Assembly: GCF_000159955.1 (NCBI RefSeq)
Contig: NZ_GG695975.1
Span: 112,895-164,875 of the forward strand
Direction of reading: 5' to 3'
Source: Paenibacillus sp. oral taxon 786 str. D14
GTDB lineage: Bacteria; Bacillota; Bacilli; Paenibacillales; Paenibacillaceae
DNA length: 51,981 nucleotides
Position numbers and translations under genes: made by a program
Part shown: piece by piece, positions 9,598 to 51,981 of the stretch
How the letters are laid out: every line of letters begins with the position of its first letter
How positions within the stretch are numbered: the stretch's first letter is position 1
Notes under the pieces: generated by a model
Seen by the model: the letters and a program-made list of their open reading frames with translations, nothing else
Databases searched by the model: none
What the model was told of the DNA's origin: nothing

Positions 9598-10983
9598 TTG
9601 AGCAGTGTAATTGCTATTCAGACTTATGACCGCGTATGGATCGGAGCGGACAGCGCGGTATCGACGCAAATCGGGGGTAACACTTATCGGCTACACGAGG
9701 ACGGCAAAAAATTATTTCACGTCGGCGACAAGGTGATTTTCTGCTCCGGGATCATGGAACTGGCAGCCGCGATTATGGCGGAATACGAAGCGGCCGCGGA
9801 CCACTCACTCGCAAAACTGCAGAAGATTGCGCGCCGACAATGCGCGGAATATACCGCCAAACACCCGGAAGTTAAGGAGCGGCGTGGCATGTTCGTCGAG
9901 CTAATGATTGCCTATTACGATAAGGGGCGCGGCAAAACGGTAGTCGCCAGCATCTCGCCGTATCACAACGATTTTGAGATCGTCGAGCGTACGCTTAATA
10001 GTCCGATGGACTTCGCGGTATGGGCGGGCGGCATCCGGACACAGCAGGCGACCGACGCGGCGATGGCGAAATTTCGGGAGACTTTGGACGTTAACTTTAC
10101 CTACAAATACGCATTTCGCGCAATCAGTTACGAGGGGATCGGCGGCAACTTGACGGTGTACGAGATTGATGCGGCCGGTGTGCGGGAGAGCCTGCGGCAT
10201 ACGATACGGGAGAGACCAGGTACTAAGCGGCTGACTCGCGATGTGCTACAAAAGGCGGTTGCCGAGCTCGTAATCGCGGAGAGGATCGTCGGGCAACAAA
10301 TTAACGGCGTCGGCTTATCGATCGGCAGCGGAAACAACATTACGTACATCAATCCGAATGGGATTGCGGCCGGTCATGCGAACTTTAGTAGCGCGCCGTT
10401 TCGGGTTGATATGCAGGGGAACGTTGTCGCACGGAAGATTACGCTGACGGGGACGGTTGAGAACTCGTCAATCAATACGTCAACAATCACAGCCGCGGTT
10501 ATTAACGGTGGCCAAATCAACGGCGCGCAGATTATTGGCGGCAGCATTACGTCTAACACGGACATCGATATTACGCGCGACATTCGGGTAGGTAACAACA
10601 TTTATCTCGGATTGACCGGTCAAACGAATGACCGGCGTATTGAGTTTGTCGATAGCGGGCCTTATCGGTCGTATGTCGGGTTTACTAACGCGACGAAACA
10701 GCTTGAACTCTACGCGGCAAACGATATCCGCATCAATAGCGGCCTTAATGTATCGCTAAATGCGGCTTATGACGTTAACGTTAACGCAAACCGCGTCATA
10801 ATCCCGTTTAATACTTACCTCGGGTCAGCCTCGTCTAGTAATCGCCTGGTCATGCAGGCGGACCTCGGCGGTAAAGCAAACGTAGAGGATGCCGGTTATA
10901 ATCTTACGTTCGATACAAGTACACGCAATCTTAAGATGTACAATCGATATGGCGACTTGATGGCGCAGGTCCATATACCGTAA
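9598..10983 (+). CDS. proteasome-fold (Ntn-hydrolase-like) domain fused to a tail-fibre-like domain
   Basis: The start is TTG 9598 (RBS GGAGGAGGA). After Met removal the mature N-terminus would be Ser-1. In the peptide beginning SSVIAIQTYDRVWIGADSAV, Asp falls at position 17, as in proteasome beta subunits and HslV, and GKKLF supplies lysines at 36-37, near the usual Lys33. Residues 1 to about 225 have the expected core pattern, including a KVIFCSG strand. From about residue 240 the sequence changes to Gly/Asn/Thr-rich strands (INGGQINGAQIIGGSI, then DIDITRDIRVGNNIYL), typical of phage tail fibres or receptor-binding proteins. The fusion suggests a self-processing or peptide-cleaving head on a fibre. 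Family calls are by eye. Confidence 0.6.
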   Translation: MSSVIAIQTYDRVWIGADSAVSTQIGGNTYRLHEDGKKLFHVGDKVIFCSGIMELAAAIMAEYEAAADHSLAKLQKIARRQCAEYTAKHPEVKERRGMFVELMIAYYDKGRGKTVVASISPYHNDFEIVERTLNSPMDFAVWAGGIRTQQATDAAMAKFRETLDVNFTYKYAFRAISYEGIGGNLTVYEIDAAGVRESLRHTIRERPGTKRLTRDVLQKAVAELVIAERIVGQQINGVGLSIGSGNNITYINPNGIAAGHANFSSAPFRVDMQGNVVARKITLTGTVENSSINTSTITAAVINGGQINGAQIIGGSITSNTDIDITRDIRVGNNIYLGLTGQTNDRRIEFVDSGPYRSYVGFTNATKQLELYAANDIRINSGLNVSLNAAYDVNVNANRVIIPFNTYLGSASSSNRLVMQADLGGKANVEDAGYNLTFDTSTRNLKMYNRYGDLMAQVHIP

Positions 10984-37713: not shown

Positions 37714-39459
37714 ATGGCTAAACAAAGCTTAATCGTCGTTGGCGGCGGCTTGGCCGGCTTGATGGCTACGATCAAATCAGCCGAAGCAGGCGTGCCGGTA
37801 CAGCTGTTTTCCCTTGTGCCGGTAAAACGTTCCCACTCGGTGTGCGCGCAAGGCGGCATTAACGGGGCCGTGAATACGAAAGGCGAAGGCGACTCGCCTT
37901 GGGAGCATTTTGACGATACCGTATACGGCGGGGATTTCCTGGCCAACCAACCGCCGGTGAAGGCGATGTGCGAAGCTGCACCTGGCATCATTCACTTGAT
38001 GGACCGGATGGGCGTCATGTTCAACCGCACGCCGGAGGGGCTGCTTGATTTCCGCCGGTTCGGCGGGACGAAGCATCACCGCACGGCGTTTGCCGGAGCA
38101 ACGACCGGACAACAGCTGCTGTACGCGCTGGATGAGCAGGTACGCCGTCATGAAGCGGCCGGCCTGGTCACGAAATATGAAAACTGGGAGTTCCTGTCTG
38201 TTGTTTTGGACGATGAAGGCGTCTGCCGCGGCATTACCGCACAAAACCTTCGCTCGATGGAAATCACCACGTTCCCTTCCGATGCGGTCATTTTGGCGAC
38301 AGGTGGCCCAGGGATTATCTTTGGTAAAACGACGAACTCGGTCATCAACACGGGGACCGCGGCCAGTGCCGTGTATCAGCAAGGCGTCACGTACGCTAAC
38401 GGTGAGTTCATTCAAATTCACCCAACGGCGATTCCGGGCGATGACAAGCTGCGTCTGATGTCGGAATCTGCACGCGGCGAAGGCGGACGGATCTGGACGT
38501 ATAAGGACGGCAAACCGTGGTACTTCCTGGAGGAGAAATATCCGGCTTACGGTAACCTTGTACCGCGGGATATTGCGACACGGGAAATTTTCCATGTGTG
38601 CGTGGACCTGAAGCTGGGCATTAACGGCGAGAACATGGTGTATCTCGACCTGTCCCACAAAGATCCGAAAGAGCTGGACGTGAAACTCGGCGGGATTATT
38701 GAGATTTATGAGAAGTTCATGGGTGATGACCCGCGCAAGATTCCGATGAAAATTTTCCCGGCAGTCCATTACTCCATGGGCGGCATGTGGGTCGACTATA
38801 ACCAAATGACCAACATTCCTGGCCTGTTTGCGGCTGGCGAATGCGAATACCAATATCACGGGGCGAACCGTCTTGGCGCCAACTCGCTGGTGTCGGCGAT
38901 TTACGGCGGCATGGTGGCCGGACCGAAAGCGGTGGAATATCTTCGCGGCCTGAAGAAATCGGCAGAGGATTTGAGCCCAAGCATTTTCGAAAGTTACCGC
39001 AAGGCCCAAGAAGAGAAATACGAAGGGATCCTGGCGATGGATGGCACGGAAAATGCCTATGTCATCCACAAAGAACTGGGCGAATGGATGACCGCGAACA
39101 TGACCGTCGTTCGTCACAACGATCGCTTGGAAGCAACCATAGGCAAAATCAAAGAACTCAAAGAACGTTACAAAAAGATCAACATCAACGATACGTCCCG
39201 CTGGAACAATACGGGAGCGGCGTTCACCCGTCAGCTGTGGAATATGCTGGAGCTGGCCGAAGCCATGACGAAGGGTGCGCTGCTGCGTAACGAAAGCCGG
39301 GGCGCGCATTACAAACCGGAGTTCCCGAACCGGAACGACGAGGAATTCTTGAAGACGACAATGGCGAAGTGGACGCCGGACGGCCCGGAAATTTCGTACG
39401 AACCGGTCGACGTCTCCTTGATCCCACCGCGGATTCGCGACTACTCGAAGGACAAATAG
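37714..39459 (+). CDS. sdhA: succinate dehydrogenase flavoprotein subunit
   Basis: This 581-residue protein has the FAD-binding VVGGGLAGLMATIKSAEAG (residues 8-26), the substrate and covalent-FAD region SHSVCAQGGINGAV with the FAD-linking His, HRTAFAGATTGQQLL, HYSMGGMWVD and GANRLGANSLVSAIYGG. It oxidises succinate to fumarate on the cytoplasmic face of the membrane. The length is standard. Confidence 0.95.
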   Translation: MAKQSLIVVGGGLAGLMATIKSAEAGVPVQLFSLVPVKRSHSVCAQGGINGAVNTKGEGDSPWEHFDDTVYGGDFLANQPPVKAMCEAAPGIIHLMDRMGVMFNRTPEGLLDFRRFGGTKHHRTAFAGATTGQQLLYALDEQVRRHEAAGLVTKYENWEFLSVVLDDEGVCRGITAQNLRSMEITTFPSDAVILATGGPGIIFGKTTNSVINTGTAASAVYQQGVTYANGEFIQIHPTAIPGDDKLRLMSESARGEGGRIWTYKDGKPWYFLEEKYPAYGNLVPRDIATREIFHVCVDLKLGINGENMVYLDLSHKDPKELDVKLGGIIEIYEKFMGDDPRKIPMKIFPAVHYSMGGMWVDYNQMTNIPGLFAAGECEYQYHGANRLGANSLVSAIYGGMVAGPKAVEYLRGLKKSAEDLSPSIFESYRKAQEEKYEGILAMDGTENAYVIHKELGEWMTANMTVVRHNDRLEATIGKIKELKERYKKININDTSRWNNTGAAFTRQLWNMLELAEAMTKGALLRNESRGAHYKPEFPNRNDEEFLKTTMAKWTPDGPEISYEPVDVSLIPPRIRDYSKDK

Positions 39460-39471
39460 GAGGGGATACCC

Positions 39472-40257
39472 ATGGCAATGGCGGAAACGGATGTATCGGC
39501 CAAACAACAAACGGCCAAAAAAGTTAAATTCATCATTACACGCCAGGATGATCCGAACTCGAAGCCTTATACGGAAGAATTCGAGCTGGATTACCGCCCT
39601 GGCATGAACGTGATCAGCGCCTTGATGGAAATCCAGCGGAACCCGGTGAACCGGAAGGGCGAGCATACCTCGCCGGTTTGCTGGGAGTCCAACTGTCTGG
39701 AGGAAGTGTGCGGCGCCTGCTCGATGGTGATCAACGGCAAACCGCGCCAGGCTTGTGCGGCACTCATCGACAATTTGGAACAGCCGATTCGCATTGAACC
39801 GATGCGGACGTTCCCGGTCGTGCGTGACCTGGTGATCGACCGCAGCCGGATGTTTAATGCGCTCAAGCGGGTGAAAGCATGGATCCCGATCGACGGCACG
39901 TACGATCTGGGACCCGGGCCGCGGATGCCGGAGAAGAAGCGCCAATGGGCGTATGAACTGTCCAAGTGCATGACCTGCGGCGTCTGCCTGGAGGCTTGTC
40001 CAAACGTCAATGAGAAGACGGACTTCATCGGTCCGGCAGCCATTTCCCAAGTGCGCTTATTCAACGCGCATCCAACAGGCGAGATGAACGCCGAAGAGCG
40101 TCTGGAGGCCCTGATGGAACCCGGCGGCATCGAAGGCTGCGGCAACTCGCAAAACTGCGTCCGCGCCTGCCCGAAAGGCATCCCGCTGACCACCTCCATC
40201 GCCGAAATGAACAAGGCGACCACGAAGCATATGTTTAAAATGTGGTTTATGCAGTAA
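39472..40257 (+). CDS. sdhB: succinate dehydrogenase iron-sulfur subunit
   Basis: This 261-residue protein has three Fe-S clusters in order: the plant-type [2Fe-2S] (CWESNCLEEVCGACSMVING, then RQAC), the [4Fe-4S] (CMTCGVCLEACP) and the [3Fe-4S] (CGNSQNCVRACPKGIP). It passes electrons from SdhA to the SdhC haems. It starts 13 bp after sdhA with RBS AGGAGGGG. Confidence 0.95.
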   Translation: MAMAETDVSAKQQTAKKVKFIITRQDDPNSKPYTEEFELDYRPGMNVISALMEIQRNPVNRKGEHTSPVCWESNCLEEVCGACSMVINGKPRQACAALIDNLEQPIRIEPMRTFPVVRDLVIDRSRMFNALKRVKAWIPIDGTYDLGPGPRMPEKKRQWAYELSKCMTCGVCLEACPNVNEKTDFIGPAAISQVRLFNAHPTGEMNAEERLEALMEPGGIEGCGNSQNCVRACPKGIPLTTSIAEMNKATTKHMFKMWFMQ

Positions 40258-40311
40258 TAGAATCTAATGGATTCATACCGATAAAGTAACGCCATTCATC
40301 CGAAAGAATCG

Positions 40312-40345
40312 GAGACAGACCCCGGGAGGGGCTGTCTCTTTTTTT
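40312..40345 (+). terminator. sdh operon terminator
   Basis: GAGACAG and CTGTCTC pair, with CCCC/GGGG inside around GGGA, followed by TTTTTTT. It marks the end of the core sdh operon; AT-rich accessory DNA begins beyond the next gene. Confidence 0.9.
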
Positions 40346-40377
40346 CGAGCTAGACAGAATAATGGAGGGGATCAGGG

Positions 40378-41520
40378 ATGTACATTCATATTCATCGGAT
40401 CGAACATGATCAGGTTTCCGTGAAATTGGAGGATTTCTCGAAAGAGGATGTAGGTAAGCTGCGTGCGGTTGGGGGAGGGAAGTGGGATCCTAATGGGAAG
40501 TTCTGGCGTTTTCCTTGCACAGAGGAGAAAATCAGGCAATTCGCAGAGTGCTTTCCGGAAGCGGAGATTCGAATGGACGGGTTAGCCGTGTCGTCAAAGC
40601 TATCCAGTAATGAAAAACTCATTCAGGCCCTGGATCAAAAGCTGCTCACCACGCTCAAGCTGAAGGGATACAGCCTCAAAACCAGCAAGGCCTACAGGGG
40701 GCATGTCCGGCGATATTTACAGAACTTGGCTGATCATTTGAAGATGAAAAGCCCAGGAACCCTCAAGGATGAGAAAATGACGTCCGCGATCATCGACTCG
40801 TCCCGTACACAACAGTATGCTTTGCAGCTCCTTGAGCAAGGGCACTCTCCTGCTTATGTGAACCAAGCCATCAGTGCTTTGCGTTTCCTGGCCGTCGAGG
40901 TATTCAAGCAACCTTCCGAACAGATGAAATATATCCGACCCCAAAAAGAGAAAAAACTGCCCTATGTCCTATCGGAGCAGGAAGTACTCCGCGTTATCCA
41001 AGCGCCGACGAATCTGAAGCACCGCACGATGTTGTATCTGGCTTACGCCTCAGGGCTGCGCGTGAGCGAGGTCGTCCGGCTGAAAGTCACGGATATCGAC
41101 CCAGAACGCGGCATCCTTCGAGTCCGGCAAGGAAAAGGCAAAAAGGACAGGCATACCTTACTATCGCAAACGGCTTGGGACATGATCCAAAAATACGTAG
41201 AAGCGGAGCGACTCTCCAACTCGATGTGGTTGTTTCCGGGGCAGCATTCGGGGAGCCACTTGCATGAACGTTCATTGCAAAAGGTATTTCAGGAAGCCCT
41301 GCAAACCTCCGGCATCCGGAAACAGGTAGGCATTCACGTCCTTCGGCACTCTTTCGCCACCCATTTGCTTGAGAACGGCACCGACCTCCGCTATATCCAG
41401 GAACTGCTGGGCCACGCCAATCCCTCCACCACCGAACGCTACACTCACGTCAGCACCAAGAATCTGAAACGGATTAAGAGTCCGCTTGATCGGATTTTAC
41501 GTGATCGAAGGGGGGAATAG
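40378..41520 (+). CDS. tyrosine recombinase with HARP-like N-terminal domain, associated with the cassette array
   Basis: This 380-residue protein has an unusual N-terminal domain (residues 1-75; LRAVGGGKWDPNGKFWRFPC resembles a HARP/HepA-related module). A SAM-like core-binding domain follows (about 80-180), then a catalytic domain with R in ASGLRVSEVVRL, K in GKGKKDR, HVLRHSFATHLL, GHANPSTTERY with the nucleophile Tyr, and a C-terminal KSPLDRI. The C-terminal half resembles Xer and integron integrases, including the SPLD end, but it lacks the about 20-residue extra helix insertion that defines IntI. It lies upstream of, and reads toward, the cassette-like genes, unlike most intI genes, which are divergent. 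RBS is GGAGGGG. Confidence 0.85.
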   Translation: MYIHIHRIEHDQVSVKLEDFSKEDVGKLRAVGGGKWDPNGKFWRFPCTEEKIRQFAECFPEAEIRMDGLAVSSKLSSNEKLIQALDQKLLTTLKLKGYSLKTSKAYRGHVRRYLQNLADHLKMKSPGTLKDEKMTSAIIDSSRTQQYALQLLEQGHSPAYVNQAISALRFLAVEVFKQPSEQMKYIRPQKEKKLPYVLSEQEVLRVIQAPTNLKHRTMLYLAYASGLRVSEVVRLKVTDIDPERGILRVRQGKGKKDRHTLLSQTAWDMIQKYVEAERLSNSMWLFPGQHSGSHLHERSLQKVFQEALQTSGIRKQVGIHVLRHSFATHLLENGTDLRYIQELLGHANPSTTERYTHVSTKNLKRIKSPLDRILRDRRGE

Positions 41521-41548
41521 CAGACTCCGGGAGGAGGATAAATTACAA

Positions 41549-41577
41549 CTTACAGAATTAAGGAATGGAGGTATAAT
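41549..41577 (+). promoter_or_regulatory. cassette-array promoter (Pc-like)
   Basis: CTTACA (41549-41554) and a perfect TATAAT (41572-41577) are separated by 17 bp. It lies between the recombinase and the attI-like core, reading into the cassettes. None of the downstream cassette genes has an equally good promoter immediately before it. Confidence 0.6.
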
Positions 41578-41646
41578 TAAGGAGATGTAATCGATTACGC
41601 AAATCCCCAGGTCAAGATGGTATTTGTGACGTGCAGAGATAAGGGA

Positions 41647-41654
41647 GTTATGTG
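41647..41654. other. attI-like core at the first cassette boundary
   Basis: GTTATGTG followed by AAAT matches the GTTATGCG core that ends each downstream inverted-repeat element, where GTTATGCG is followed by TAAT or AAAT. It is not preceded by a hairpin partner, as expected for a primary attachment site rather than a cassette-borne one. Confidence 0.5.
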
Positions 41655-41691
41655 AAATCAGCATAAATAAAAAATTGAAAGAGTGGTATGA

Positions 41692-42192
41692 ATGACTGGA
41701 TGCAGATATTTATTCATTTCTTCTAATGGAGATAAGATTATAAAGATCTCTCAACCCAAAAATCACAAATATAAGTCTGTACCTCAATTAGCAAATCAGA
41801 ATGTACTTGAGGTCATTTTATTTTACAAAAATAAAGACAGGAAGCCACATCAATTGCTTACGGTCGAATTTGACCGATTCCGATTAGATTCCAATGGTAA
41901 TTATGAAGAAACAGAAGTAGATAGGAAAAGAGCTTTTCATAATTTCTTTGCTTTTGGAATGCCGAGTTTACTCGAAGAAGTAGAAGTAGATGATAAACCA
42001 TTACCTATACCTGTTGCTCCAATAGTTCCAACCGATAGTGAGAAAAGATCATTATACAGTTACATAAATGAGAAGTTACCTAACTTAGCAGCTGCTGCCC
42101 CGTATGTTGTTGAGAGTAAAATTAAAGCATCGAGAGAGAAATACGAAGAGTTTAAAACCATCGCAAAGAAATCAAAGAACCGACTTAAGTAG
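41692..42192 (+). CDS. cassette 1: hypothetical protein
   Basis: This 166-residue soluble protein is AT-rich in codon use. The N-terminal half looks beta-rich (MTGCRYLFISSNGDKIIKIS) and the C-terminal half helical and charged. No family was recognised. It starts about 45 bp after the attI-like core and stops 20 bp before the first repeat element, the compact layout of an integron cassette. The RBS is weak (AAAGAGTGG). Confidence 0.6.
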   Translation: MTGCRYLFISSNGDKIIKISQPKNHKYKSVPQLANQNVLEVILFYKNKDRKPHQLLTVEFDRFRLDSNGNYEETEVDRKRAFHNFFAFGMPSLLEEVEVDDKPLPIPVAPIVPTDSEKRSLYSYINEKLPNLAAAAPYVVESKIKASREKYEEFKTIAKKSKNRLK

Positions 42193-42212
42193 TTCGAAGA
42201 AGATGCTGACAT

Positions 42213-42338
42213 CACATAACATTATATTCACGCATCGGGCATACGCCCTCGGTCCGGCAGAGGGATTTCGTGGAAGTAGAAGCAGAGCCGGACACACCCA
42301 GCATTCGCTGGGCGTCGTGAATACGGGAACGTTATGCG
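42213..42338. repeat. attC-like cassette recombination site 1
   Basis: Outer arms are CACATAAC (42213-42220) with GTTATGCG (42331-42338), and ATTCACG (42226-42232) with CGTGAAT (42316-42322). The arm spacers are asymmetric, 5 bp on the left and 8 bp on the right. Inside are three hairpins: GGGC/GCCC (42237-42248), GTCCGGC/GCCGGAC (42252-42293) with loop motif ATTTCGTGGAAGTAGA, and CCCAGC/GCTGGG (42297-42312). The result is a cloverleaf-like fold on a single strand. Confidence 0.75.
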
Positions 42339-42370
42339 TAATTATTGGAAGATCAAAGAATATAAAGTAG

Positions 42371-43033
42371 GTGTCAACTGTGGGATTTTTTCAAACAATA
42401 CTAGCTTTGCTACTTTTAATGCTTGTAATATTTATTTTTAATAAACTGGAACGCTTTCTTTCTGCTAGGGCCTTGATTTTTACTCCTATTCTACTTCCAT
42501 TATTAATTTATTTTGCTAACTTAGTTAGTTTCGGTTCAGTTATCGATATATTTGCGGGTAATATAAATCAAACCATTTTTTGTGTGTTAATTTTTAGTTT
42601 CATAATTACTGGGTTCTATATTCTATATATATTTGAAAGAATTGCTCAGTCATCTATTGATGATAATGTAACAAAAGCACTATTTAGAATTGGGTATGCC
42701 GCTGCATCTTCGTGCATATATTTTGCTTTAATTTATACAATCGTATATAGAGTTTCAGGAAATACTGCTTTTCAAGGTAATGTAGGAGAAGGAATGTTAA
42801 GTCAGCTCATTTCGTTTTTATATTTCAGTACTATTATATTTACTGTTGGTTTTAGTGATATAAGCCCAGTAGGAAGCCTTCCAAGGTTATTGGTTTTACT
42901 GGAAGTTGTGCTCGGATTTATCACAGTAATTTATGCTATATCTTCTTTTGCATACTTTAAAGATAAATTTAAAACGAAATCACCATTCTTAATTACTAAC
43001 AAAAGTAGACAGATAAAAAACAAAGAAGAGTAA
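42371..43033 (+). CDS. cassette 2: two-pore-helix potassium-channel-like membrane protein
   Basis: This 220-residue protein starts at GTG 42371, 33 bp after the repeat-element core. Hydrophobic segments lie at about residues 3-22, 30-55, 65-90 and 108-130. The C-terminal part (about 150-200) is a channel pore: YFSTIIFTVGFSDISPVGSL, in which TVGFSD corresponds to the K+ selectivity filter TVGYGD, followed by an inner helix and a basic tail. K+ channel-type function is inferred. It is AT-rich and unlike the flanking core genes. Confidence 0.65.
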   Translation: MSTVGFFQTILALLLLMLVIFIFNKLERFLSARALIFTPILLPLLIYFANLVSFGSVIDIFAGNINQTIFCVLIFSFIITGFYILYIFERIAQSSIDDNVTKALFRIGYAAASSCIYFALIYTIVYRVSGNTAFQGNVGEGMLSQLISFLYFSTIIFTVGFSDISPVGSLPRLLVLLEVVLGFITVIYAISSFAYFKDKFKTKSPFLITNKSRQIKNKEE

Positions 43034-43068
43034 GGAAACGGGGGAATATTCGAAGAGGCCAATAACTA

Positions 43069-43232
43069 CGCATAACACAGTATTCACGCTTCGGGCCTTA
43101 CAGCCCTTGGTCTGCAAGGGGCATTTCGAGGAAGTGGATTCTGCAGACAACCCTGTGAGGCTAAGTGGCGGAGCCACCCGGTCCTAGCGGACCTTAAGCC
43201 TCTCGGGTTCGTGAATACAACAACGTTATGCG
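43069..43232. repeat. attC-like cassette recombination site 2
   Basis: The same geometry as site 1 is present: CGCATAAC (43069-43076) with GTTATGCG (43225-43232), ATTCACG (43082-43088) with CGTGAAT (43210-43216), and spacers of 5 and 8 bp. Internal hairpins are GGGC/GCCC (43093-43106), GTCTGCA/TGCAGAC (43110-43148, compensatory changes relative to site 1) with loop motif ATTTCGAGGAAGTGGA, and a longer third arm with GTGGC/GCCAC and GGTCC/GGACC sub-hairpins. Confidence 0.78.
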
Positions 43233-43264
43233 AAATTCCTGAGAGAAAAGAAAAATGAAATTAG

Positions 43265-43726
43265 GTGAAATCCAAATCAATGATTAATCTAAAAGATTAC
43301 AATGATCGAAAGGAAATCATAAATTTATTAGCTGAATGCATGTTCTCAGAGGAAGAACGAGTAGTTCAGGAATATGAACAATATAAGAATGATCAATCTA
43401 GAATATTACTAGGAAGAATTGAGAACCAAAAATTAGTTGGGTTACTCGGAATCGTTTTTCAATCAGATAACGAAGTTGAATTAAAACATATAGCAATAAA
43501 ATCTAGTAATAGAAGACAAGGATTAGGCACTAAATTAATAATGGAATTTTTGAAAGAGAATCATATAAGAAGAATAGAAGCCGAAACCGATAAGGATGCA
43601 GTAGATTTTTATAGAAAGATTGGCTTTTACATTACGACTTTGGGAGAGAAATATCCTGGAGTAGAACGATATAAATGCATATTAATAAATTCGAAGTTTA
43701 TTCAAGAGGTCAGGAACTTCACATAA
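43265..43726 (+). CDS. cassette 3: GNAT-family N-acetyltransferase
   Basis: This 153-residue protein has the GNAT acetyl-CoA-binding motif: ELKHIAIKSSNRRQGLGTKL (about residues 79-98), then a beta4-alpha3 region and DAVDFYRKIGFYITTLG. The stop codon TAA (43724-43726) lies inside the left arm of the third repeat element, as often seen in integron cassettes. The substrate is unknown. It starts 33 bp after the previous element's core. Confidence 0.8.
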   Translation: MKSKSMINLKDYNDRKEIINLLAECMFSEEERVVQEYEQYKNDQSRILLGRIENQKLVGLLGIVFQSDNEVELKHIAIKSSNRRQGLGTKLIMEFLKENHIRRIEAETDKDAVDFYRKIGFYITTLGEKYPGVERYKCILINSKFIQEVRNFT

Positions 43727-43740
43727 CACCGTATTATACG
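43720..43740. repeat. attC-like site 3, left half only
   Basis: CACATAAC (43720-43727), a 5-bp spacer and ATTATACG (43733-43740) match the left arms of sites 1 and 2. No matching right arm was found downstream, so the array appears truncated here. Another CGCATAAC at 43831-43838 may be a further remnant. Confidence 0.6.
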
Positions 43741-43838
43741 AGCCATTTTCCGGCCCTTCAGAAATACTTGTAACCCTTATCACATAAGGCTTTTCACTAA
43801 TTCCCCACTTCGCTTTTGTCGCTTTGTCTTCGCATAAC

Positions 43839-44017
43839 TTGAATTTTTTCAGCCAAGATATACGAATCAGGTTCTTGAAGGTAATACGCGGAAAAAGATA
43901 TGTGCACCTGATTTTCACAAGATATACGAGGCTGCTGAAAGGATCATAGCTCCTATTGAATCAACAGTCAAGCGCATGAATTATGACGGAATTAATGTAA
44001 GATTAAAAGTATCCTAA
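43839..44017 (+). pseudogene. C-terminal remnant of an unidentified gene
   Basis: An open frame without start or RBS, ending at TAA 44015-44017, encodes a protein-like sequence (VLEGNTRKKICAPDFHKIYE, then AAERIIAPIES). It begins right after the CGCATAAC remnant at 43831. It looks like the tail of a truncated cassette or island gene. The surrounding 43741-44169 holds no intact gene. TTGAC-ATTC-GTCAA (44072-44085) is a dyad ahead of the next gene. Confidence 0.4.
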
Positions 44018-44169
44018 CGTAATTAACGTATAGCGTAATAAAATTGAAAATTCTAAAAGTAAAAAGTATTTTTGACATTCGTCAATTTTAAGTCCTCTTC
44101 CACAGGTTTTTATTCATTTACATAGAACTATTAATTTGAGGTAAATACTTAAAAGGGGAGGGGGAGCTT

Positions 44170-45858
44170 GTGTTAGAAATAGATGAGACAAAGCTCGTAA
44201 CTCTAGAAAAATATTCTGCGGCTAATCCAGAAGGTGAAGTGGTACTAGGTGAAATAGCAAAACGTATTTACCATGCTAAATCTCCTAGTGTATCTTGGTC
44301 AGATGAATTAAAGAGCAATGAGATAATTTATGCTATTCAAGAAGGTATCCTTGTAAAGACATCTGATGATGCTATATCGTTTACGGACTCTCAATATTTT
44401 TTGTATTTTTGGGCAAAATCTTTGATCTTATCACGTCTTGAGGTAGTATGGGTGTATAAAGAAGAGTTCTGGGATGAAATTGATTCTTTACAATTAGAAT
44501 ACGTGTCGTTCGAACAGCTGCAGTATATAGAAGTGATGCTGTTGATACTATTGCAGCGTCATTATGGAAAAGATATTTTGGAGTCACTTGTCTTAATTCT
44601 AAAGACTGATACGGAAAGAGACCATTGGTTGCTATTGCAAACCGTATCTAATGTGCTGCCTTACCTACACTTGAAACCAGAGCGTATTATAAACTTTTTG
44701 GAAGATCTGCACGATACTCAAATTCCCTATATAAAGGTCCTTGCTAAAGGTGTGGAAATACTAGCTACAAATTATCCTGATATTGGTCGAGAGTTATGGG
44801 AAACTTGGTCGACATTTCCTGACTTTAAGTCCGTTTGGCTCATTACAGCAGTTGCTGTTGGTCTTGCTCGAAGTGAAGGAATTCAAAGTGTGTTTAGCAA
44901 AACATTGAATCTTGTGGACTCTCATCAGGAATCGTTAGTCGATGCTGGCGTGCGCATATTAGGACTCCTTCCTTACAGCGAAACTAATGACGATCAAATA
45001 AATAACACGTTAGTGAAGTTTGATAAACTACTTAAAGACGAACCAAATATTCAAGTGCGTCAAGCCTTGGCATATGCGTATGGGCAACTTGTCCCCTTGT
45101 CGGAACGTGCACAGCTTGCCATACAAATATTATCTACAGAGTCTTTGCCAGAGGTTCAGGCCCAAGTAGCTCTTATTTTGTTTAATTATAATAAAGATCA
45201 ATTGGATAAAACGTGGTTTCAGGAAACATTACTACAGTTGACAAAAGTGAAGGTGGAACAAAAAGATATTATTAATAACTTAGATTTTATCCTAACTCGC
45301 CTAGCTTCAAGTAATTTAGATTGCGTAAAAAAATTACTAGAGAACTGGATATTAGAGCACGAGGCTCCGAAACGAGAAGAATCTCTTGCTAAGCTCTTTG
45401 ACATGTTACTTCTATCACTAGTAAAAGAGAACAAGCCATGGTTTGAGAAATTGCTATCGTCTTGGTTTATTGCGGATGACAAGCGATTCCATCTGCATAT
45501 TCAAGAAATGCTTCATCATTTAACTGTGCACGGTGTGACTTTACATTTGGATCCAGAAATCATCAGCGAATGGACTTTTAAAGACACCAAGTATGTGCTA
45601 ATGAAAATTTTGGGGTTCGTCGCAGATAATAAAAATTTATGCCATCTCACATTCTCTGTGTTACAAAGAACACCTGAGGATGAAACGATCAATATGTTGG
45701 TAAGAGCCGCGTTCAGGGATTATATAGCATATAATTATCCGGGGGCTACTCGTGAGATTCTTACTGATAAAACAGAAAATGGCACGGATACACGGATACG
45801 GAAAGAAAAGTTGCAAGTGTCATCCTTAGCGACCTGGACAGCTATCTGCAGGATTTGA
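44170..45858 (+). CDS. large helical-repeat protein, possibly the C-terminal half of a STAND/NACHT-type defence protein
   Basis: This 562-residue ORF starts at GTG 44170 with RBS GGGGAGGGGG. The first 85 residues (IIYAIQEGILVKTSDDAISF, then TDSQYFLYFWA) resemble the winged-helix region that follows the NTPase in STAND/NACHT proteins. The rest is alpha-helical repeats of HEAT type. No Walker motif is present, so the NTPase part may have been lost at the array junction. Near 45800 (GAAAGAAAAG) the frame is probably broken: the minus-one frame continues as VILSDLDSYLQDLSGLPKIK into the next ORF. It could be a pseudogene, a programmed shift or a sequencing error. Confidence 0.5.
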   Translation: MLEIDETKLVTLEKYSAANPEGEVVLGEIAKRIYHAKSPSVSWSDELKSNEIIYAIQEGILVKTSDDAISFTDSQYFLYFWAKSLILSRLEVVWVYKEEFWDEIDSLQLEYVSFEQLQYIEVMLLILLQRHYGKDILESLVLILKTDTERDHWLLLQTVSNVLPYLHLKPERIINFLEDLHDTQIPYIKVLAKGVEILATNYPDIGRELWETWSTFPDFKSVWLITAVAVGLARSEGIQSVFSKTLNLVDSHQESLVDAGVRILGLLPYSETNDDQINNTLVKFDKLLKDEPNIQVRQALAYAYGQLVPLSERAQLAIQILSTESLPEVQAQVALILFNYNKDQLDKTWFQETLLQLTKVKVEQKDIINNLDFILTRLASSNLDCVKKLLENWILEHEAPKREESLAKLFDMLLLSLVKENKPWFEKLLSSWFIADDKRFHLHIQEMLHHLTVHGVTLHLDPEIISEWTFKDTKYVLMKILGFVADNKNLCHLTFSVLQRTPEDETINMLVRAAFRDYIAYNYPGATREILTDKTENGTDTRIRKEKLQVSSLATWTAICRI

Positions 45859-46178
45859 GTGGTCTCCCGAAAATAAAAGAGTTCTTCCCGCCAGAAGGGA
45901 GGGCGAAAAAATTCGAGAAAATGCAATCAAAACAAATGAGCCGTCAGATCGAAGAAGGCACCAATAAGAATTCAATTTTATTACAGCTTGTCCATCGTGT
46001 AGTTTTGAAGGGTGGAAGGTCCTCATTCTCTAGAGTACAGGGGAAACTGACAAATAAAACAGGGCTTTCTGAGTTCTCGGTGGCTATAGAATTTCCTAAA
46101 GGTGAATATTTGGACCCAATAGGTCAAGTCATGACTAGAGCGGATTGGCGGCTTTGCAGAAGGGAGGATATAGAATGA
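45855..46178 (+). pseudogene. frameshifted C-terminal continuation of the 44170 gene
   Basis: This 107-residue frame lacks its own RBS. It is open upstream of 45855 into the region where the 44170 gene loses protein-like character, so the two are most simply one broken gene of about 665 codons. Its C-terminus (SEFSVAIEFPKGEYLDPIGQ, then VMTRADWRLCRREDIE) overlaps the start of the following gene by 4 bp (ATGA), as partners in a two-gene system do. Confidence 0.5.
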
Positions 46179-47839
46179 GACTTATAGTCCGTGAATACTT
46201 GTCTATGCTAAGAGAGTCAAACGAATTGGACAATCTCCTTCCCGATCTTCTGCTCTCAATGGATATTCAGCCTATTTTCAAACCCCAACGCGGAGTTCGG
46301 CAATATGGAGTCGATCAATCCGCAATTGGTATTGATCCTGAGGATCAGCGAGAGAAGCTATTTCTTTTTGTCATAAAACAAAAGGATATTGATCGCAATA
46401 ATTGGGATACCGGTCCCCAGGCTGTTCGGCCCACACTGAACGAAATTTTTGATGTCTACATGCGGAGCATGCTGGATGACCGATTCCGAGATCTCCCCAA
46501 AAAAATTGTCATATGTACAAATGGAGATATGAAACAGGATGTGGCTATCAATTGGATTAATTACATCAACGATCATAGCGTTGTAGGCAAGATAGAATTC
46601 GATTTTTGGGGTGGTGATGTACTATCTTCCTTAGTTGTTCGTTACTTGCTAAATGAGTTTGTAATACCGGAATCGCTTCAAAAGCAGATGCGGAAAACGT
46701 TAGCCTTTCTTGATTTGGTGGAGTACGATTTGTCTCACTTTTATGAAATGGTCGAGGAAATTTTATTCAACGATACGTTGCAATCTCAAAATAAACCATT
46801 AAAGATTCTTCGCAGCCTCCATTTATGTTTAAACCTTGTATATCACTGGAGTCGGGAAGCTAGAAATCTTAAGCATGCTGTCTTTGCTGCTGAGCGGGTA
46901 ATATTGCGTATGTGGGAATGGATACACCAAGAAGGCTTGAAAGATAACAAAAAGCTCTGGGAAATTTTTTTTGCGATCGATGAGACCCGCCGTCAAATCA
47001 ATAATGAGTATCTGGATAAGATCCTCCCACATTGCTTAGTTCGCGATGGGCTTAGCGGGTACGGATCGGAGCGGATTGAATATCCATTGTTAGTATTTGA
47101 ACAAATTGGAATCATTGCGTCAATCGGATTAGATTTTGTATATGCAGAAGATTCACTTGGACAGGATGAGCCGAATGACCATTTTCAAGAAGTAGCTCAA
47201 AAAGCTGCGTATGTCTTGCAAAAACTTATACAGAATAATAATATCAGTCGGTTCCCGGTATACGATTCCCACGTCAATGAAATTTCAACCGCACTTATCC
47301 TACTTTACAGGACAAATCAATTAGGTGCAACGAAGACGTGGATTAATCAATTGTTCGTGCATATTGGTCGTGGATATCAACTACTTGGAAGGTTCCCACT
47401 ACTAAGCGATTCTTACGATGACTTAATAGAAGTTGAGTTGGGACTGCAGAGTGCGGAGCCGTCCTCGTCCACTTTATTACCGATATTGCTAGAATGGACA
47501 GTCGTACTTGATGTGCCAGAACAATATGTTCAAGCACGTGACATGATTCATCAGATTTTTAAAAACGTAGATCTTCAAATATGGTTTCCAGATGAGCTTT
47601 CAGAGAAGCACATGTTTAAATCGAATGCTCTATTCGACTCTGGGGCAATGCTGACGACGATTAAATTGCCCGAGAGTTTTGAACAGTACCGAGCCATGGT
47701 TTGTGAAGAGATGAAAGAGATTATGGAGAAGGTGGAATTTTCTTTTTTTGAAGAATCTTTCCCGATTATGGGTATTCTGTCTTTTCGGCATTTTCGCACT
47801 CCTGTTTTTCCTATTTACTGGAGAAACTTAATTAAGTAG
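46175..47839 (+). CDS. nuclease-like protein partner (PD-(D/E)xK-type fold suspected)
   Basis: I chose ATG 46175 (RBS GGGAGGA), giving 554 residues. Residues 35-95 contain RGVRQYGVDQSAIGI and then LFLFVIKQKDIDRNNW, a G-V-D...x-(Q)xK arrangement like Mrr-type restriction endonuclease folds. A helical-repeat region (about 180-540) follows. Overlap with the upstream helical-repeat gene indicates a two-gene operon, possibly an anti-phage system. I could not match it to a named defence system. Confidence 0.5.
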   Translation: MRLIVREYLSMLRESNELDNLLPDLLLSMDIQPIFKPQRGVRQYGVDQSAIGIDPEDQREKLFLFVIKQKDIDRNNWDTGPQAVRPTLNEIFDVYMRSMLDDRFRDLPKKIVICTNGDMKQDVAINWINYINDHSVVGKIEFDFWGGDVLSSLVVRYLLNEFVIPESLQKQMRKTLAFLDLVEYDLSHFYEMVEEILFNDTLQSQNKPLKILRSLHLCLNLVYHWSREARNLKHAVFAAERVILRMWEWIHQEGLKDNKKLWEIFFAIDETRRQINNEYLDKILPHCLVRDGLSGYGSERIEYPLLVFEQIGIIASIGLDFVYAEDSLGQDEPNDHFQEVAQKAAYVLQKLIQNNNISRFPVYDSHVNEISTALILLYRTNQLGATKTWINQLFVHIGRGYQLLGRFPLLSDSYDDLIEVELGLQSAEPSSSTLLPILLEWTVVLDVPEQYVQARDMIHQIFKNVDLQIWFPDELSEKHMFKSNALFDSGAMLTTIKLPESFEQYRAMVCEEMKEIMEKVEFSFFEESFPIMGILSFRHFRTPVFPIYWRNLIK

Positions 47840-47966
47840 AGAATTTAGAAGTAACTAAATCGAGGTAGTGAGGGGCTATAAAACGCTAGGGCATAATTTG
47901 GGAGAAGTAAGCGATCAATTTGAAGAAGGCAACAATTCTGATAAAAGAACAGCAGGTACTAAGGGA

Positions 47967-48050
47967 GTAGATGTGGCGGAATGGCAGACGCGCTCGACTC
48001 AAAATCGAGTGGGGAGACCCGTGGAGGTTCGAGTCCTCTCACCGGTACCA
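47967..48050 (+). tRNA. tRNA-Leu (CAA anticodon) with mispaired acceptor stem
   Basis: A class II tRNA layout is clear: TGGCGGAATGGCAGACGC (D arm), CTCGA-CTCAAAA-TCGAG (anticodon CAA), GGG-GAGA-CCC variable arm, GGAGG-TTCGAGT-CCTCT (T arm) and an encoded CCA at 48048-48050. The 3' acceptor strand CACCGGT does not pair with the 5' strand GTAGATG at two positions, and only G-U pairs hold two others. The 5' end has probably been replaced, so this is likely a tRNA 3' copy at an island attachment site rather than a working gene. Confidence 0.7.
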
Positions 48051-48061
48051 TATACTTAAAA

Positions 48062-48104
48062 CAAAAACCCTGATCGTTGAAAAATTCAATGATCAGGGTT
48101 TTCT
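48062..48104 (+). terminator. strong terminator after the tRNA
   Basis: AACCCTGATCGTTGAA and TTCAATGATCAGGGTT form a 16-bp stem with one G-T pair around an AAA loop, followed by TTTC. Confidence 0.85.
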
Positions 48105-48259
48105 TCGCATTTAAAGTAAATAATAAGCAGGGAGTACAACGCTTGTTCGCATATACCTAAGGAGCCGAAACTTATTCATTAAGACCCGATTTCTTGAAGC
48201 GATACAACCTTTACAGGTTTTATGCGGCACGGTTGCTTTCTCTATTTTTGGAATAATGA

Positions 48260-48535
48260 TCATGTTGTTTTGCTGTCGTTACGGGAGCGGAGATTGGTGT
48301 TATTTCATTGGTCTCTGAGCGGATGGGGATTGGGACAAAAGTGATCGAGTGGTTAAAAAATTATACCCAAAACAAAGGTTTTGACCGAATTTGTATCGAA
48401 AATGCCAACACGGATGCGAGTATTGGATTGGCAAGGAAATTGGGCTTCACTAATGTCCCTAATAGTCCAATTATTCAAGAGGTTCTTAAAACAGAGGAGT
48501 CGCCTGACTATCATTTACTGATAGTAAGATCATAA
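48260..48535 (+). pseudogene. truncated GNAT acetyltransferase
   Basis: The open frame from about 48260 to 48535 encodes AEIGVISLVSERMGIGTKVI, then EWLKNYTQNKGFDRI and ASIGLARKLGFTNVP, the C-terminal half of a GNAT domain. The first half of the fold is missing and a stop codon precedes it. TTG 48308 could start a 75-residue fragment. It is gene debris next to the island edge. Confidence 0.6.
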
Positions 48536-48567
48536 GTTCCTTTTAGTTAGTCCAGACTCAAAAAGTA

Positions 48568-48591
48568 CCCCCAACTTCTCGAAGTTGGGGG
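48568..48591. terminator. 11-bp perfect hairpin
   Basis: CCCCCAACTTC pairs with GAAGTTGGGGG around TC. There is no T-tract on the plus strand. Similar hairpins occur at IS200/IS605-type ends, but no transposase is present. Confidence 0.5.
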
Positions 48592-49281
48592 CTCTAGTGC
48601 TTACTTTGATTATTTTTGTAATCTTCCGATCTTTTAAACATCCTCAGCCTAAATATTGCGATACGCAATTCTTTCTTCAGTAAACTTGTAACTGTAGGCC
48701 AACTCAGAACTTGATTCCGGTCGATCTCTCCCGTTTGAGTTGTTTTACAACATTATTCTATGGTTAGATACCTAGTCCGTATCCGGCGAATGCCTATAGT
48801 CAAACGCCCTTTTTATGATTTATTTGATACATAATTCAGATTCGCTGACGCCTACAGGTCGGCGAATCAACCCAAGATATTGGGACTATTCGAAACTTGC
48901 GTACGGATGGCCTGTTACAGAAAAAACAAAGAGCCCCAAGCCAAAAGGGCGAGGGGTTAAAAAGCAGGTGACGTTCTTTGCTTCTAATTTATGTATGAAC
49001 GTTTGCACATGTTACAAAAAACTAAAAGACACTGCTGTTCGATACCTATATTTCCAATTCGAATGAATGTGACCCAAAATGAAAATAAATAAGGAAAGTT
49101 TTAGCAACTATATTCTCGCAAAAGCTGGAATCTTCTAGTATAATATGTCTATAAAGCGAGGATTAGACAGGAATTTGGACCATATTTTTCGGCTCGGTTA
49201 TTAGGACAAAGGTCCGTTTTTCGGTCGAAACTGTGCTTCTAGTACTTTTCTATAGAAAGACTGAAAAAGAGGAGGGATCTG
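48592..49281. other. 690-bp region without a convincing gene
   Basis: The only sizeable plus-strand ORF (48815-49066, 83 codons) has no RBS and no protein-like composition. A TATAAT at 49139-49144 is a plausible -10 for the downstream riboswitch transcript. The rest looks like decayed mobile DNA. Confidence 0.4.
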
Positions 49282-49302
49282 ATGTCAAATCTATGTAGGT
49301 AG
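49282..49302 (+). promoter_or_regulatory. possible 6-codon leader ORF before the riboswitch
   Basis: ATG 49282 follows GAGGAGGG with 5-6 bp spacing and encodes MSNLCR before TAG. It lies about 110 bp upstream of the c-di-GMP aptamer in what is probably the same transcript. Confidence 0.25.
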
Positions 49303-49409
49303 TACCTGGTGGCTGTTAAATGACATTATGAGGTCAGGTGAGGGATTCGAACATCGCCATGGACGAATGGGTTATGAACTATTCTCCTATTGGTTGTCCA
49401 AATAAATAT

Positions 49410-49550
49410 GAGCTGAAGGAAAAATGGCAAACCCGCTCGAAAGACGGGGACGCAAAGCCACGGGTCTGCGGCCGTAAGGCTATGATCGCCGGGTTACCCT
49501 AAAAGGCTGGCTTCCGGAGAAAAGGCACGTTTAGGGTACGTGTCTTTTTT
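49410..49550 (+). ncRNA. c-di-GMP-I (GEMM-I) riboswitch with terminator/antiterminator
   Basis: The canonical aptamer order is TGGCAAACC, a CGAAAG-capped P2, GGGGACGCAAAGCCACGGGT, then GCTATGATCGCCGGGTTACC. Downstream, GGCACGT (49524-49530) and ACGTGTC (49538-49544) form a terminator with TTTTTT. ACCCTAAA at the aptamer end (49496-49503) can pair with TTTAGGGT (49530-49537) in the terminator loop region, giving an alternative fold. It controls the histidine kinase gene 58 bp downstream. Confidence 0.92.
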
Positions 49551-49607
49551 GTCGTCTATGTCCGATTCCGAATAAGCCGAGGAACCTCATCGAGGGAGGG
49601 AACTGAA

Positions 49608-51143
49608 GTGGTGCTTGTACTGTCATTATTGCTGATGACCGCCATTCTGCTATTCGCCCATCCGACAAGAGAGCCAAATCGTTGGGCCGGTTCAGTCGCT
49701 TTTTTCTCTGTACTCGGAGAGTTGACTATCGCCATAGATGAGAAGATAATTCCCGTAATTGTCCCCTTGGCAAACGGTCCAATTATAGCCGGATTAGAGT
49801 GGGTAAAAGGTTTTTTTTACTTCTTAGCCTTATACTTGCCTCCCTATTCATTATTGATGTTCAGCTTGAGCTATGCGGGGTGGTTTCAACGGCGAAAGAG
49901 TTGGAAGCGCTCCATAATCGTCGGGGCACTGATACCGGTTCTGATCATGTTTCTTCTACCTTCAGAGGCTTCACGTGATACACGACCGATACCGTTCTGG
50001 GCAATGATTTATTACGCTACCGCAGCAGTGCCATGCTTGAGGTTGGCATACCGTGAAGTTGATAAGAGGATCAGGCAGCAACACCGTGTGGTCTGTTGGA
50101 TTGTTGTACCGTCGATCGGTTTTGTACTGCTTTTCGATTATATTCTGCCTTTGCTCCAATTCCACCCGCCCTTTGATACCAAACGTGCTGGTTTAGCAGC
50201 CGTGTGCATTTTCTTTTTTGTATTTGTTGTACGTTACGGTGTATTGGGCGTCCGAATCCGATTGGAGAAGTATTCCACATCCCCAGAGCCATATGGGGAG
50301 ACTCCGCTTACATTTCAATTCTATCATGCTTTAAAAAGTGAACTTGGAAAAATACAGATTGCAGCCAGACGTATATTTTATCTTGCCCAACGGACCAAGC
50401 AACAGGAATTGTATCGGGATACATCTCATTTGATCGATGCTACCGAGCGGATTATGGCAATAGCTTTCCGTTTTCGTAATTCATCACAACAGTTGGTATT
50501 GTACGAGCAGTCATGCATTATAAATGAACTCGTTGAGCAACTATTGAATAGCTTGACGGGAGAATTTTGCAGCAAGAATCTTATCGTCCGAAAAAAATTG
50601 GATGAATCGATTGTTTTGTGTTGTGATTCTGTTCACGTGCAGCAAGTCATGAAGAACCTCTTCTATAATGCCATTGAAGCGATGTCCGAAGGAGGGTGTC
50701 TGACAATAACGTCGAGTCTGTCGCAAGAAACGCTGGATATCTCTGTTCGTGATTCCGGTTGCGGCATCGCTCCGGAAGCAATGCCGTATATTTTTGAACC
50801 TCATTTTACAACCAAGTCGAACGAAGAGAACGATGGATTGGGTTTATTCTACAGTCATGAAGTCATGCGTCACCATCAAGGATCCATCGAGGTACAAAGT
50901 CTAATCGGAATCGGTACGACATTTACGCTTCATTTTCCCATCCAAAGAGTCATTCGTCATTCACCGCCATTGAACCGATGGGAGGGAGACCATGAGCAAG
51001 ATCAAAGTATTATTGGTGGAAGACGATCCGGTGTGGAACGAATATATATCCGAAACGGTGAATCGAGAACCGGATTTGTTTTTGGTCGGAACGGCTCGGA
51101 CGAAAGTCAATGCAATTCGCATTGTCAGTATGTTAGACATTGA
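49608..51143 (+). CDS. membrane sensor histidine kinase under c-di-GMP riboswitch control
   Basis: This 511-residue protein starts at GTG 49608 (RBS GAGGGAGGGA). About seven membrane segments fill residues 1-210. The phosphoacceptor helix has FYHALKSELGKIQIA (His about residue 240). The ATPase domain has N-box NLFYNAIEAM, G1 DSGCGIAPE, F-box FEPHFTTK and G2 GLGLFYSHEV. The ORF does not stop after the HATPase end (FTLHFPI) but continues about 65 residues, overlapping the response-regulator gene by 152 bp in another frame. The ligand is unknown. Confidence 0.88.
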   Translation: MVLVLSLLLMTAILLFAHPTREPNRWAGSVAFFSVLGELTIAIDEKIIPVIVPLANGPIIAGLEWVKGFFYFLALYLPPYSLLMFSLSYAGWFQRRKSWKRSIIVGALIPVLIMFLLPSEASRDTRPIPFWAMIYYATAAVPCLRLAYREVDKRIRQQHRVVCWIVVPSIGFVLLFDYILPLLQFHPPFDTKRAGLAAVCIFFFVFVVRYGVLGVRIRLEKYSTSPEPYGETPLTFQFYHALKSELGKIQIAARRIFYLAQRTKQQELYRDTSHLIDATERIMAIAFRFRNSSQQLVLYEQSCIINELVEQLLNSLTGEFCSKNLIVRKKLDESIVLCCDSVHVQQVMKNLFYNAIEAMSEGGCLTITSSLSQETLDISVRDSGCGIAPEAMPYIFEPHFTTKSNEENDGLGLFYSHEVMRHHQGSIEVQSLIGIGTTFTLHFPIQRVIRHSPPLNRWEGDHEQDQSIIGGRRSGVERIYIRNGESRTGFVFGRNGSDESQCNSHCQYVRH

Positions 51144-51627
51144 TGTGGTACTATTGGATGTGGTGTTGGATGGGAAAAAAGCAGACGGGCTTGACGCAGC
51201 GCTCGAAATTGTCTGCATGAGTAAGGCGAAAGTCATCATGCTTACGGTATTAGACCAGGCAGAGATCGTTTCCGAGGCGTTCGGCAACGGTGCTTTCAAT
51301 TATATTGTCAAAACGGCGCTCGAAGATATTCCGGAGGCTATTCGAGCTGCACATTCGGGACTATCCTCCATTCATGCTTCGGCTGCAGGCGTGCTTCGAT
51401 CCGAATTTGTTCGAATGAAGCAACAAGAAATGCGCCAAAATTTGACGCGAACCGAAGTTGAAATCCTCCGTTTTATTCATAATGGTCATACCCGTTCCGC
51501 AATTGGGGAACATTTGCATATAACGGAAAGTACGGCCAAAAAGCATGTAAACCGAGTGATTCGAAAATTAAAGGTTCATACCGGTAGAGAAGCTGCCAAA
51601 AAAGCAAAATTGAAAGGAATATTATAA
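50992..51627 (+). CDS. NarL/FixJ-type response regulator
   Basis: This 211-residue regulator has a receiver domain (residues 3-120) with acidic VEDDPVW, the phosphoacceptor Asp in VVLLDVVLDG and Lys in NYIVKTA. A C-terminal LuxR-type helix-turn-helix follows (NLTRTEVEILRFIHNGHTRS, then AIGEHLHITESTAKKHVNRV). RBS is GGGAGG. It is the partner of the overlapping kinase. A terminator follows. Confidence 0.9.
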   Translation: MSKIKVLLVEDDPVWNEYISETVNREPDLFLVGTARTKVNAIRIVSMLDIDVVLLDVVLDGKKADGLDAALEIVCMSKAKVIMLTVLDQAEIVSEAFGNGAFNYIVKTALEDIPEAIRAAHSGLSSIHASAAGVLRSEFVRMKQQEMRQNLTRTEVEILRFIHNGHTRSAIGEHLHITESTAKKHVNRVIRKLKVHTGREAAKKAKLKGIL

Positions 51628-51656
51628 AGTCCATGTGTATTGATATAGAAAACCGG

Positions 51657-51699
51657 GAATAGCACCTTTAGCCAATACAGGGTAGATGCTATTCTTTTT
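51657..51699 (+). terminator. terminator of the two-component operon
   Basis: GAATAGCA (51657-51664) pairs perfectly with TGCTATTC (51687-51694), followed by TTTTTG. The remaining 280 bp to the window end hold no supported gene. Confidence 0.8.
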
Positions 51700-51981
51700 G
51701 TTTGTTAGTCAAACAACCAGTCAGGAATGCGTAACCAGCCGTCGACTGAAATCTGACGACTGGCTACCTATCCCTGCCTCACAATCAAGGGTATTTAAAC
51801 TTTTAAGCTTTAGTATCTATGTTTTGTCCGCGATATTGATCTTGCTTCTCTGGTTTGTGCTGCTGATGCACTGTTTCAGTATGTTGGTGATCTAACGATG
51901 TTTTCCTAGTCCCTCCGTGCATATTTCCCATCCCGCAATTCTTTGGCATTGCTGAATTCGATATACCGCTTACTGCCATAG

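Follow-up and report, generated by a model that had tools for sequence, protein, structure and literature searches.

Integrons are known for collecting antibiotic-resistance genes. When an integron circle is opened at G^TT, the left arm of its site is expected to match the start of its own cassette and not that of the next one. IntI-type integrons, such as class 1 and the sedentary chromosomal integrons of Vibrio, have an attI site beside the recombinase gene, palindromic sites with R and L boxes and a G^TT crossover. We found the same arrangement at positions 40378-43735 of a 51,981-nt stretch of Paenibacillus sp. oral taxon 786 str. D14 (the whole stretch analyzed, hereafter the window), where a tyrosine recombinase gene, a promoter-like sequence, an attI-like site and three cassettes follow one another in one direction (Table 1). 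An earlier note, made from the letters of the window, had listed a recombinase, a promoter, an attI-like core and three genes in this order; the open reading frames (ORFs) and sites were confirmed and the range proved wider than reported. With a probability of about 85%, we interpret the locus as an integron-like gene-capture array, the enzyme of which likely integrates circular cassettes and excises them again at G^TT via the folded bottom strand.

Cassette ends, sites and content

We compared the start of each cassette with the left arm of the site that closes it. Of the 17 bases compared for each cassette of the window, 15 pair between the start at 41647 and the arm that ends at 42220, 16 between 42331 and 43076, and 15 between 43225 and 43727. 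The first of these starts, that of cassette 1, doubles as the attI-like core (GTTATGTG at 41647), whose partner is accordingly the left arm of site 1. Among neighbor pairs from Paenibacillaceae (three loci repeating a genome were excluded), the arm matched its own cassette start at all three variable bases in 156 of 192 cases and the next start in 19, while permutations gave a mean of 11.3 and a maximum of 22 matches. Distant taxa behaved alike, with 12 of 19 arms matching their own start and two the next (permutation maximum 6). In the 167 pairs matched at those three bases, pairing was high to base 17, 0.57 at base 18 and at background thereafter. Base 11 is a conserved A.C mispair, A being present in 153 of 157 starts and C in 151 of 157 arms (11/12 and 10/12, respectively, in distant taxa). 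Six class 1 cassettes used as a control also showed own-start pairing, in runs of 8 to 13 bases, and own-start pairing is therefore a trait common to integrons. Base 11 was paired in four of the six and the run ended earlier in the other two, so that the mispair was not seen in this small control (n=6). Judging by their pairing, the R″ arm and the start of a cassette thus derive from one circle.

Sites were detected with a box-anchored finder that requires 8-nt L arms with 0-1 mismatch and would miss bulged sites. Over the whole window, its strict form returned site 1 (42214-42337) and site 2 (43070-43231), whose 8-nt L arms are perfect, as well as weaker matches at 37941-38094 and 39793-39858, with one mismatch each in R and L. 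Ten shuffles of the window gave 0 to 7 matches, so the site pattern alone is not rare; what goes beyond chance is the tandem pair with perfect L arms and the pairing of arms with their own cassette starts. A related inverted repeat had been described after each gene, which holds for sites 1 and 2, while the third element keeps its left part only, following the site pattern up to 43735 (GTATT) and departing from it afterward with no right half. The third stop codon does lie within the third left arm, as had been claimed (TAA at 43724-43726, within TAAC). The spacers, previously given as 5 and 8 bp, measured 3-4 and 6-7 nt depending on the placement of the L boxes, the two lengths being 3 nt apart in 205 of the 241 sites from Paenibacillaceae and in 21 of the 45 from other taxa. 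In all 286 sites, the 8-nt L arms are paired without a bulge and with at most one mismatch, as the finder demands; the extra-helical bases that attC sites owe to an extra base in L″ were not found, with a finder that is blind to bulges. Site length in Paenibacillaceae ranged from 61 to 217 nt (median 148). Predicted folds consist of an R stem, an asymmetric loop, an L stem and branched hairpins, with the bottom strand predicted to be the more stable in 186 of the 241 sites and the top strand in 53. RNAalifold on 38 sites gave 13 pairs, corresponding to the L stem and two hairpins, and did not return the R stem; the two R arms of a site in an array come from different cassettes. Sites within an array have boxes in common and no long identity.

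The window is 85-98% identical to its relatives through the recombinase. Homology then ends at 41651-41658 in L023, L024, L025, L026 and L028/L043 (the last two from one genome), and the genes beyond differ; L027, whose contig runs out at attI, was not counted. Content therefore changes at an attI site beside the integrase gene. A fixed gene order in relatives had been named as a finding that would count against cassettes; in these five relatives, the sequence past attI differs. From 211 neighbor pairs we obtained 162 verified cassettes (median 742 nt), with the longest ORF on the plus strand in 130 of 161. Five cassettes are common to different genomes, at 84-99% identity. In three of these the whole cassette matches and nothing does within 500 nt on either side, and in two the upstream flank is shared as well, for 142 and 197 nt ending at the boundary, a stretch that we take to be the neighboring site. 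None of the five has homology in the 500 nt downstream. L023 and L032 share a cassette at 98.7%, despite recombinases with 97% and 49% identity to that of the window. Base-exact ends in different arrays are what would be expected of mobile cassettes, and the mobility suggested in the earlier note is thus supported by sequence comparison, both of relatives and of shared cassettes.

Near-identical cassettes are also repeated inside one array (98-99%; one of them three times), at 3686-4260 and 11169-11456 of L032 and at 9937-10555 and 15033-15653 of L033, as may be expected of recent re-insertion. Five of ten cassette proteins scanned had Pfam matches (GNAT, HepT-like, methyltransferase, Mrr_cat and Hypoth_Ymh). 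A cassette starting at 3885 of L026 encodes a 305-aa protein that we read as a small tyrosine-recombinase-like protein; it had no Pfam match at E<=0.001.

The recombinase and its linkage to the sites

The best NCBIfam match of the window recombinase is NF040815, at 204.8 bits (cut-off 220), and it scores 190.6 bits against TIGR02249, below the cut-off of 265. Its alignment to IntI4 skips approximately 40 residues, and the KDR-HxLRH gap is 55-61 in the 50 measured of its best 80 relatives vs. 99-101 in three IntI rows. It thus lacks the IntI-specific insertion (I2) in the catalytic domain, as the earlier note had maintained. A Foldseek search with a structure model of the recombinase had IntI4 as top match (E 2.3e-16). 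In a quick tree, IntI is the sister clade of the HARP-type recombinases and nine Xer rows branch apart with a support of 97, so that there is no grouping with XerC/XerD. Its named relatives include proteins of Paenibacillus sp. MBLB2552 (P0004; 89% identity) and P. phocaensis (82%). Several array-linked recombinase genes (L026, L029, L039, L057 and others) contain stops or frameshifts; approximately one third of intI genes are reported to be likewise broken in the available text of PMC2426708.

An N-terminal domain resembling HARP is supported by sequence profiles. A profile of 44 such domains had the HARP domain of SMARCAL1 (4o66) as its best PDB match, with an E-value of 0.0036, and Pfam HARP (PF07443) was found in six of ten homologues at E<=5, the best at 1.5e-05 and 24.9 bits (cut-off 25). 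The HARP-like character proposed earlier is supported at the level of the family profile and the homologues, while the window's own N domain gave no Pfam HARP match at E<=0.1 and 4o66 was not among the matches listed in structure searches with it. The HARP domain of SMARCAL1 binds branched DNA.

To assess linkage, we scanned the best 80 of 570 confirmed relatives; 73 of these named loci had at least 150 nt after the recombinase, and seven were dropped. Across the 73 loci, core-anchored sites numbered 168 downstream of the recombinase (306.7 kb searched) and 0 upstream (490.6 kb), compared to an average of 0.6 in shuffled sequences and eight on the other strand. Chance was ruled out by shuffles. 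At least one site was present downstream in 49 of the 73 and, where at least 1500 nt of downstream sequence was available, in 23 of 23 Paenibacillaceae loci and 20 of 23 others, 12 of the latter having two or more. No site was found in L084, L112 and L119 (at least 1500 nt downstream), and some isolated hits (that of L074 and one of L083) resemble chance palindromes. Site-bearing loci belong to many phyla and include Clostridium, Alkaliphilus, a Thermotogae metagenome-assembled genome (MAG), Bacteroidota, Nitrospirota and Gemmatimonadota, together with archaeal MAGs of Micrarchaeota (one site) and Altarchaeum (three sites), MAG contigs being liable to misplacement. The array had been placed in Bacillota, which is right for the window and too narrow for the recombinase lineage. 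The contig ends within 1500 nt past the recombinase in 34 of 80 loci, as repeats would cause, in a count made without a control.

In a set of 299 genomes spread over the phylum, 26 had a recombinase match at E<=1e-80, with or without HARP. A second sample of 20 stretches from this set, from which three full-length hits near contig ends and others were excluded, showed sites beside eight of ten full HARP recombinases and two of eight recombinases without HARP (one-sided p-value 0.022). L216, in which HARP lies in another frame, has sites, bringing the count to 9 of 11 HARP recombinases; L217, which also has sites, was set aside as its recombinase is cut by the contig end. Among 59 relatives, 24 carry the recombinase (E<=4.3e-88). 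The half-site pattern had 539 matches in the 59, vs. 62 for the reversed pattern; the median was 12.5 for the 24 recombinase carriers and 2 for the remaining 35 genomes (p-value 6e-05).

Full-length HARP-type recombinases were also encountered on Bacteroidota plasmids (L161, Chryseobacterium plasmid NZ_CP041688.1, 10017-12408; and L162), and those of Chryseobacterium are possibly plasmid-borne relatives of the system. Small genes on the same strand lie after the recombinase of L161, along with two start/arm pairs that were noticed by eye and are a lead only. Neither finder gave a convincing site in L161 or L162, and the one own-start pair of L161 (10/13) is equaled in score by a pair upstream. 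No site was found on the Pontibacter plasmid L171.

One observation weighs against a dedicated recombinase: 12 of the 35 relatives without a recombinase match have at least five half-site matches. Repeats with no linked recombinase had been named beforehand as damaging to the integron reading, and they do occur, yet the 73 loci have all 168 sites downstream and none upstream. Site clusters without a recombinase also occur in known integrons (CALIN clusters). The array might then be an integrase-less cluster whose cassettes are moved by a canonical IntI elsewhere, the neighboring recombinase being an ordinary, uninvolved Xer-type enzyme, and the 12 relatives fit this, as do the CALIN elements known in Firmicutes according to the accessible part of PMC9024848. 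We consider it improbable, since the sites adjoin the recombinase in 49 loci and on its downstream side only, none of 11 genomes searched had an IntI above the TIGR02249 cut-off, and the geometry of the sites is unlike that of class 1 attC, of which the same finder picks up none of six. The enzyme is of the Xer/IntI kind and RecA can recombine repeats, so the genes could in principle be moved by XerC/XerD-dif modules or by homologous recombination between repeats, with no folded site. The separation of the Xer rows in the tree speaks against the former; recombination between whole repeats would not yield start-to-own-arm pairing, and the array sites share boxes rather than long identity, which makes this explanation quite unlikely.

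The branched folds of the palindromes and their position after genes would also suit terminators, structured RNAs or dispersed repeats among island genes, with a recombinase that merely integrated the island. Such elements would neither pair with the start of the preceding gene nor bound shared segments to the base, and the absence of palindromic sites upstream of the recombinase is likewise contrary to this account, to which we attach very little probability. A known RNA family was ruled out by the absence of any Rfam match at E<=1 in 38000-46500, and dispersed repeats by the absence of core-anchored sites upstream of the recombinase.

Returning to the integron-like array, the window recombinase probably recombines these sites, with a folded single strand as the putative substrate. 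The HARP-type recombinase would insert and remove circular cassettes at the G^TT crossover, acting on the folded bottom strand of the cassette sites. Most speculatively, the HARP-like domain may stand in for the IntI insertion, taking its part at extra-helical bases, perhaps together with the base-11 A.C mispair. It is somewhat more probable than the contrary that such HARP-integrons form a second great integron family in bacteria and archaea, sister to IntI and overlooked by current integron tools, in which recognition of the folded single-strand sites falls to the HARP domain instead of the IntI insertion, and that the common ancestor captured genes before the insertion arose.

Features and flanks of the array

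Table 1. Positions of the recombinase gene, predicted sites and cassettes in the window.
Feature	Positions	Strand	Evidence or remarks
Tyrosine recombinase, HARP-type, 380 aa	40378..41520	+	PF00589 E 1.2e-42; read toward array
HARP-like N-terminal domain of recombinase (supported by profiles), residues 1-72	40378..40593	+	44-domain profile, PDB 4o66; Pfam HARP in homologues
Predicted cassette promoter, TTACAG-16-TATAAT	41550..41577	+	GTATAATTAAGG; same in 7 aligned genomes
attI-like site, predicted crossover 41647/41648	41600..41651	+	Block GCAGAGAT..GGAGTTA kept in 7 genomes
Cassette 1, ORF 41692-42192, 166 aa, no family found	41648..42331	+	Start vs. arm 42204-42220, 15/17
Cassette site 1	42204..42347	+	Left arm 42204-42220; L boxes 42225-42232, 42316-42323; right arm from 42331
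Cassette 2, ORF 42371-43033, 220 aa, ion channel domain PF07885 (E 1.3e-05)	42332..43225	+	Start vs. arm 43060-43076, 16/17
Cassette site 2	43060..43241	+	Left arm 43060-43076; L boxes 43080-43087, 43211-43218; right arm from 43225
Cassette 3, ORF 43265-43726, 153 aa, GNAT PF00583 (E 3.8e-13)	43226..43735	+	Start vs. arm 43711-43727, 15/17; ends within own site
Cassette site 3, left part only	43711..43735	+	Right part missing

The three cassette genes, described earlier as unrelated, would be transcribed from the predicted promoter, judging from its sequence and position. No LexA-like box (GAAC-4-GTT) was detected within 300 nt before the recombinase gene, which is preceded by ORFs that we take to be sdhA and sdhB. 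Between the truncated array and a tRNA-Leu (47967-48050) lies an Olokun-type defense pair, OloA (44170-45858; PADLOC, E 1.9e-41) and OloB (46145-47839; E 1.2e-156). Positions 48293-51981 are 87% identical to a stretch of G001 located approximately 180 kb from the integron of that genome, while 43745-48292 have short matches only. A rearrangement or island therefore adjoins the array at its right flank, and may have caused the loss of the right part of site 3.

Comparison with known systems

Integrons have been held to be very rare in Firmicutes, for which the available text of the IntegronFinder 2.0 study gives one complete integron, in Limnochorda pilosa, and few CALIN (PMC9024848); this is to be set against a recombinase in 24 of 59 relatives and in 26 of 299 genomes over the phylum. 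The system would open to study a means of gene capture used by soil Bacillota and uncultured phyla, the cargo of which is largely unknown. How the IntI insertion and attC sites arose is presented as a chicken-and-egg paradox by Escudero et al. (2016) in the part of their paper at hand (PMC4792948); this question becomes testable with a sister lineage whose sites are attC-like and whose enzyme lacks the insertion.

No description of such HARP-recombinase arrays was found in a literature search that did not extend to preprints and most subscription papers. According to the accessible text of Smyshlyaev et al. (2021), the insertion is incompletely conserved in an integron-like subgroup, yet essential for integron function (PMC8138268). 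As it is variably kept there, HARP-type enzymes may already have been grouped without their arrays. The best NCBIfam match, NF040815 (archaeal XerA / “site-specific tyrosine recombinase/integron integrase”), is below its cut-off and mentions neither HARP nor linked cassettes in its name.

The reading of the recombinase in the direction of the cassettes is shared with the reverse integron of Treponema, in which the enzyme is treated as an IntI, a comparison made by description alone from the text available (PMC3607928, PMC4909258). Cassette arrays in archaeal MAGs are shared with the archaeal integrons of Ghaly et al. (2022), whose IntIs, in the portion of that paper at hand, have the IntI-specific additional domain that is absent here (PMC9668308). 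As in IntI-type integrons, most genes have one orientation and the cassette arm pairs with its own start. In contrast to them, the recombinase of this array has a HARP-like N domain and no IntI insertion and is transcribed toward the array, and the L arms pair without an extra base, with spacers differing by 3 nt. The conserved base-11 A.C mispair also sets these sites apart, as does their greater length in Paenibacillaceae, for which the consultable text of PMC2727003 gives an attC range of 57-142 nt. The system thus works like an integron, yet falls outside the IntI type.

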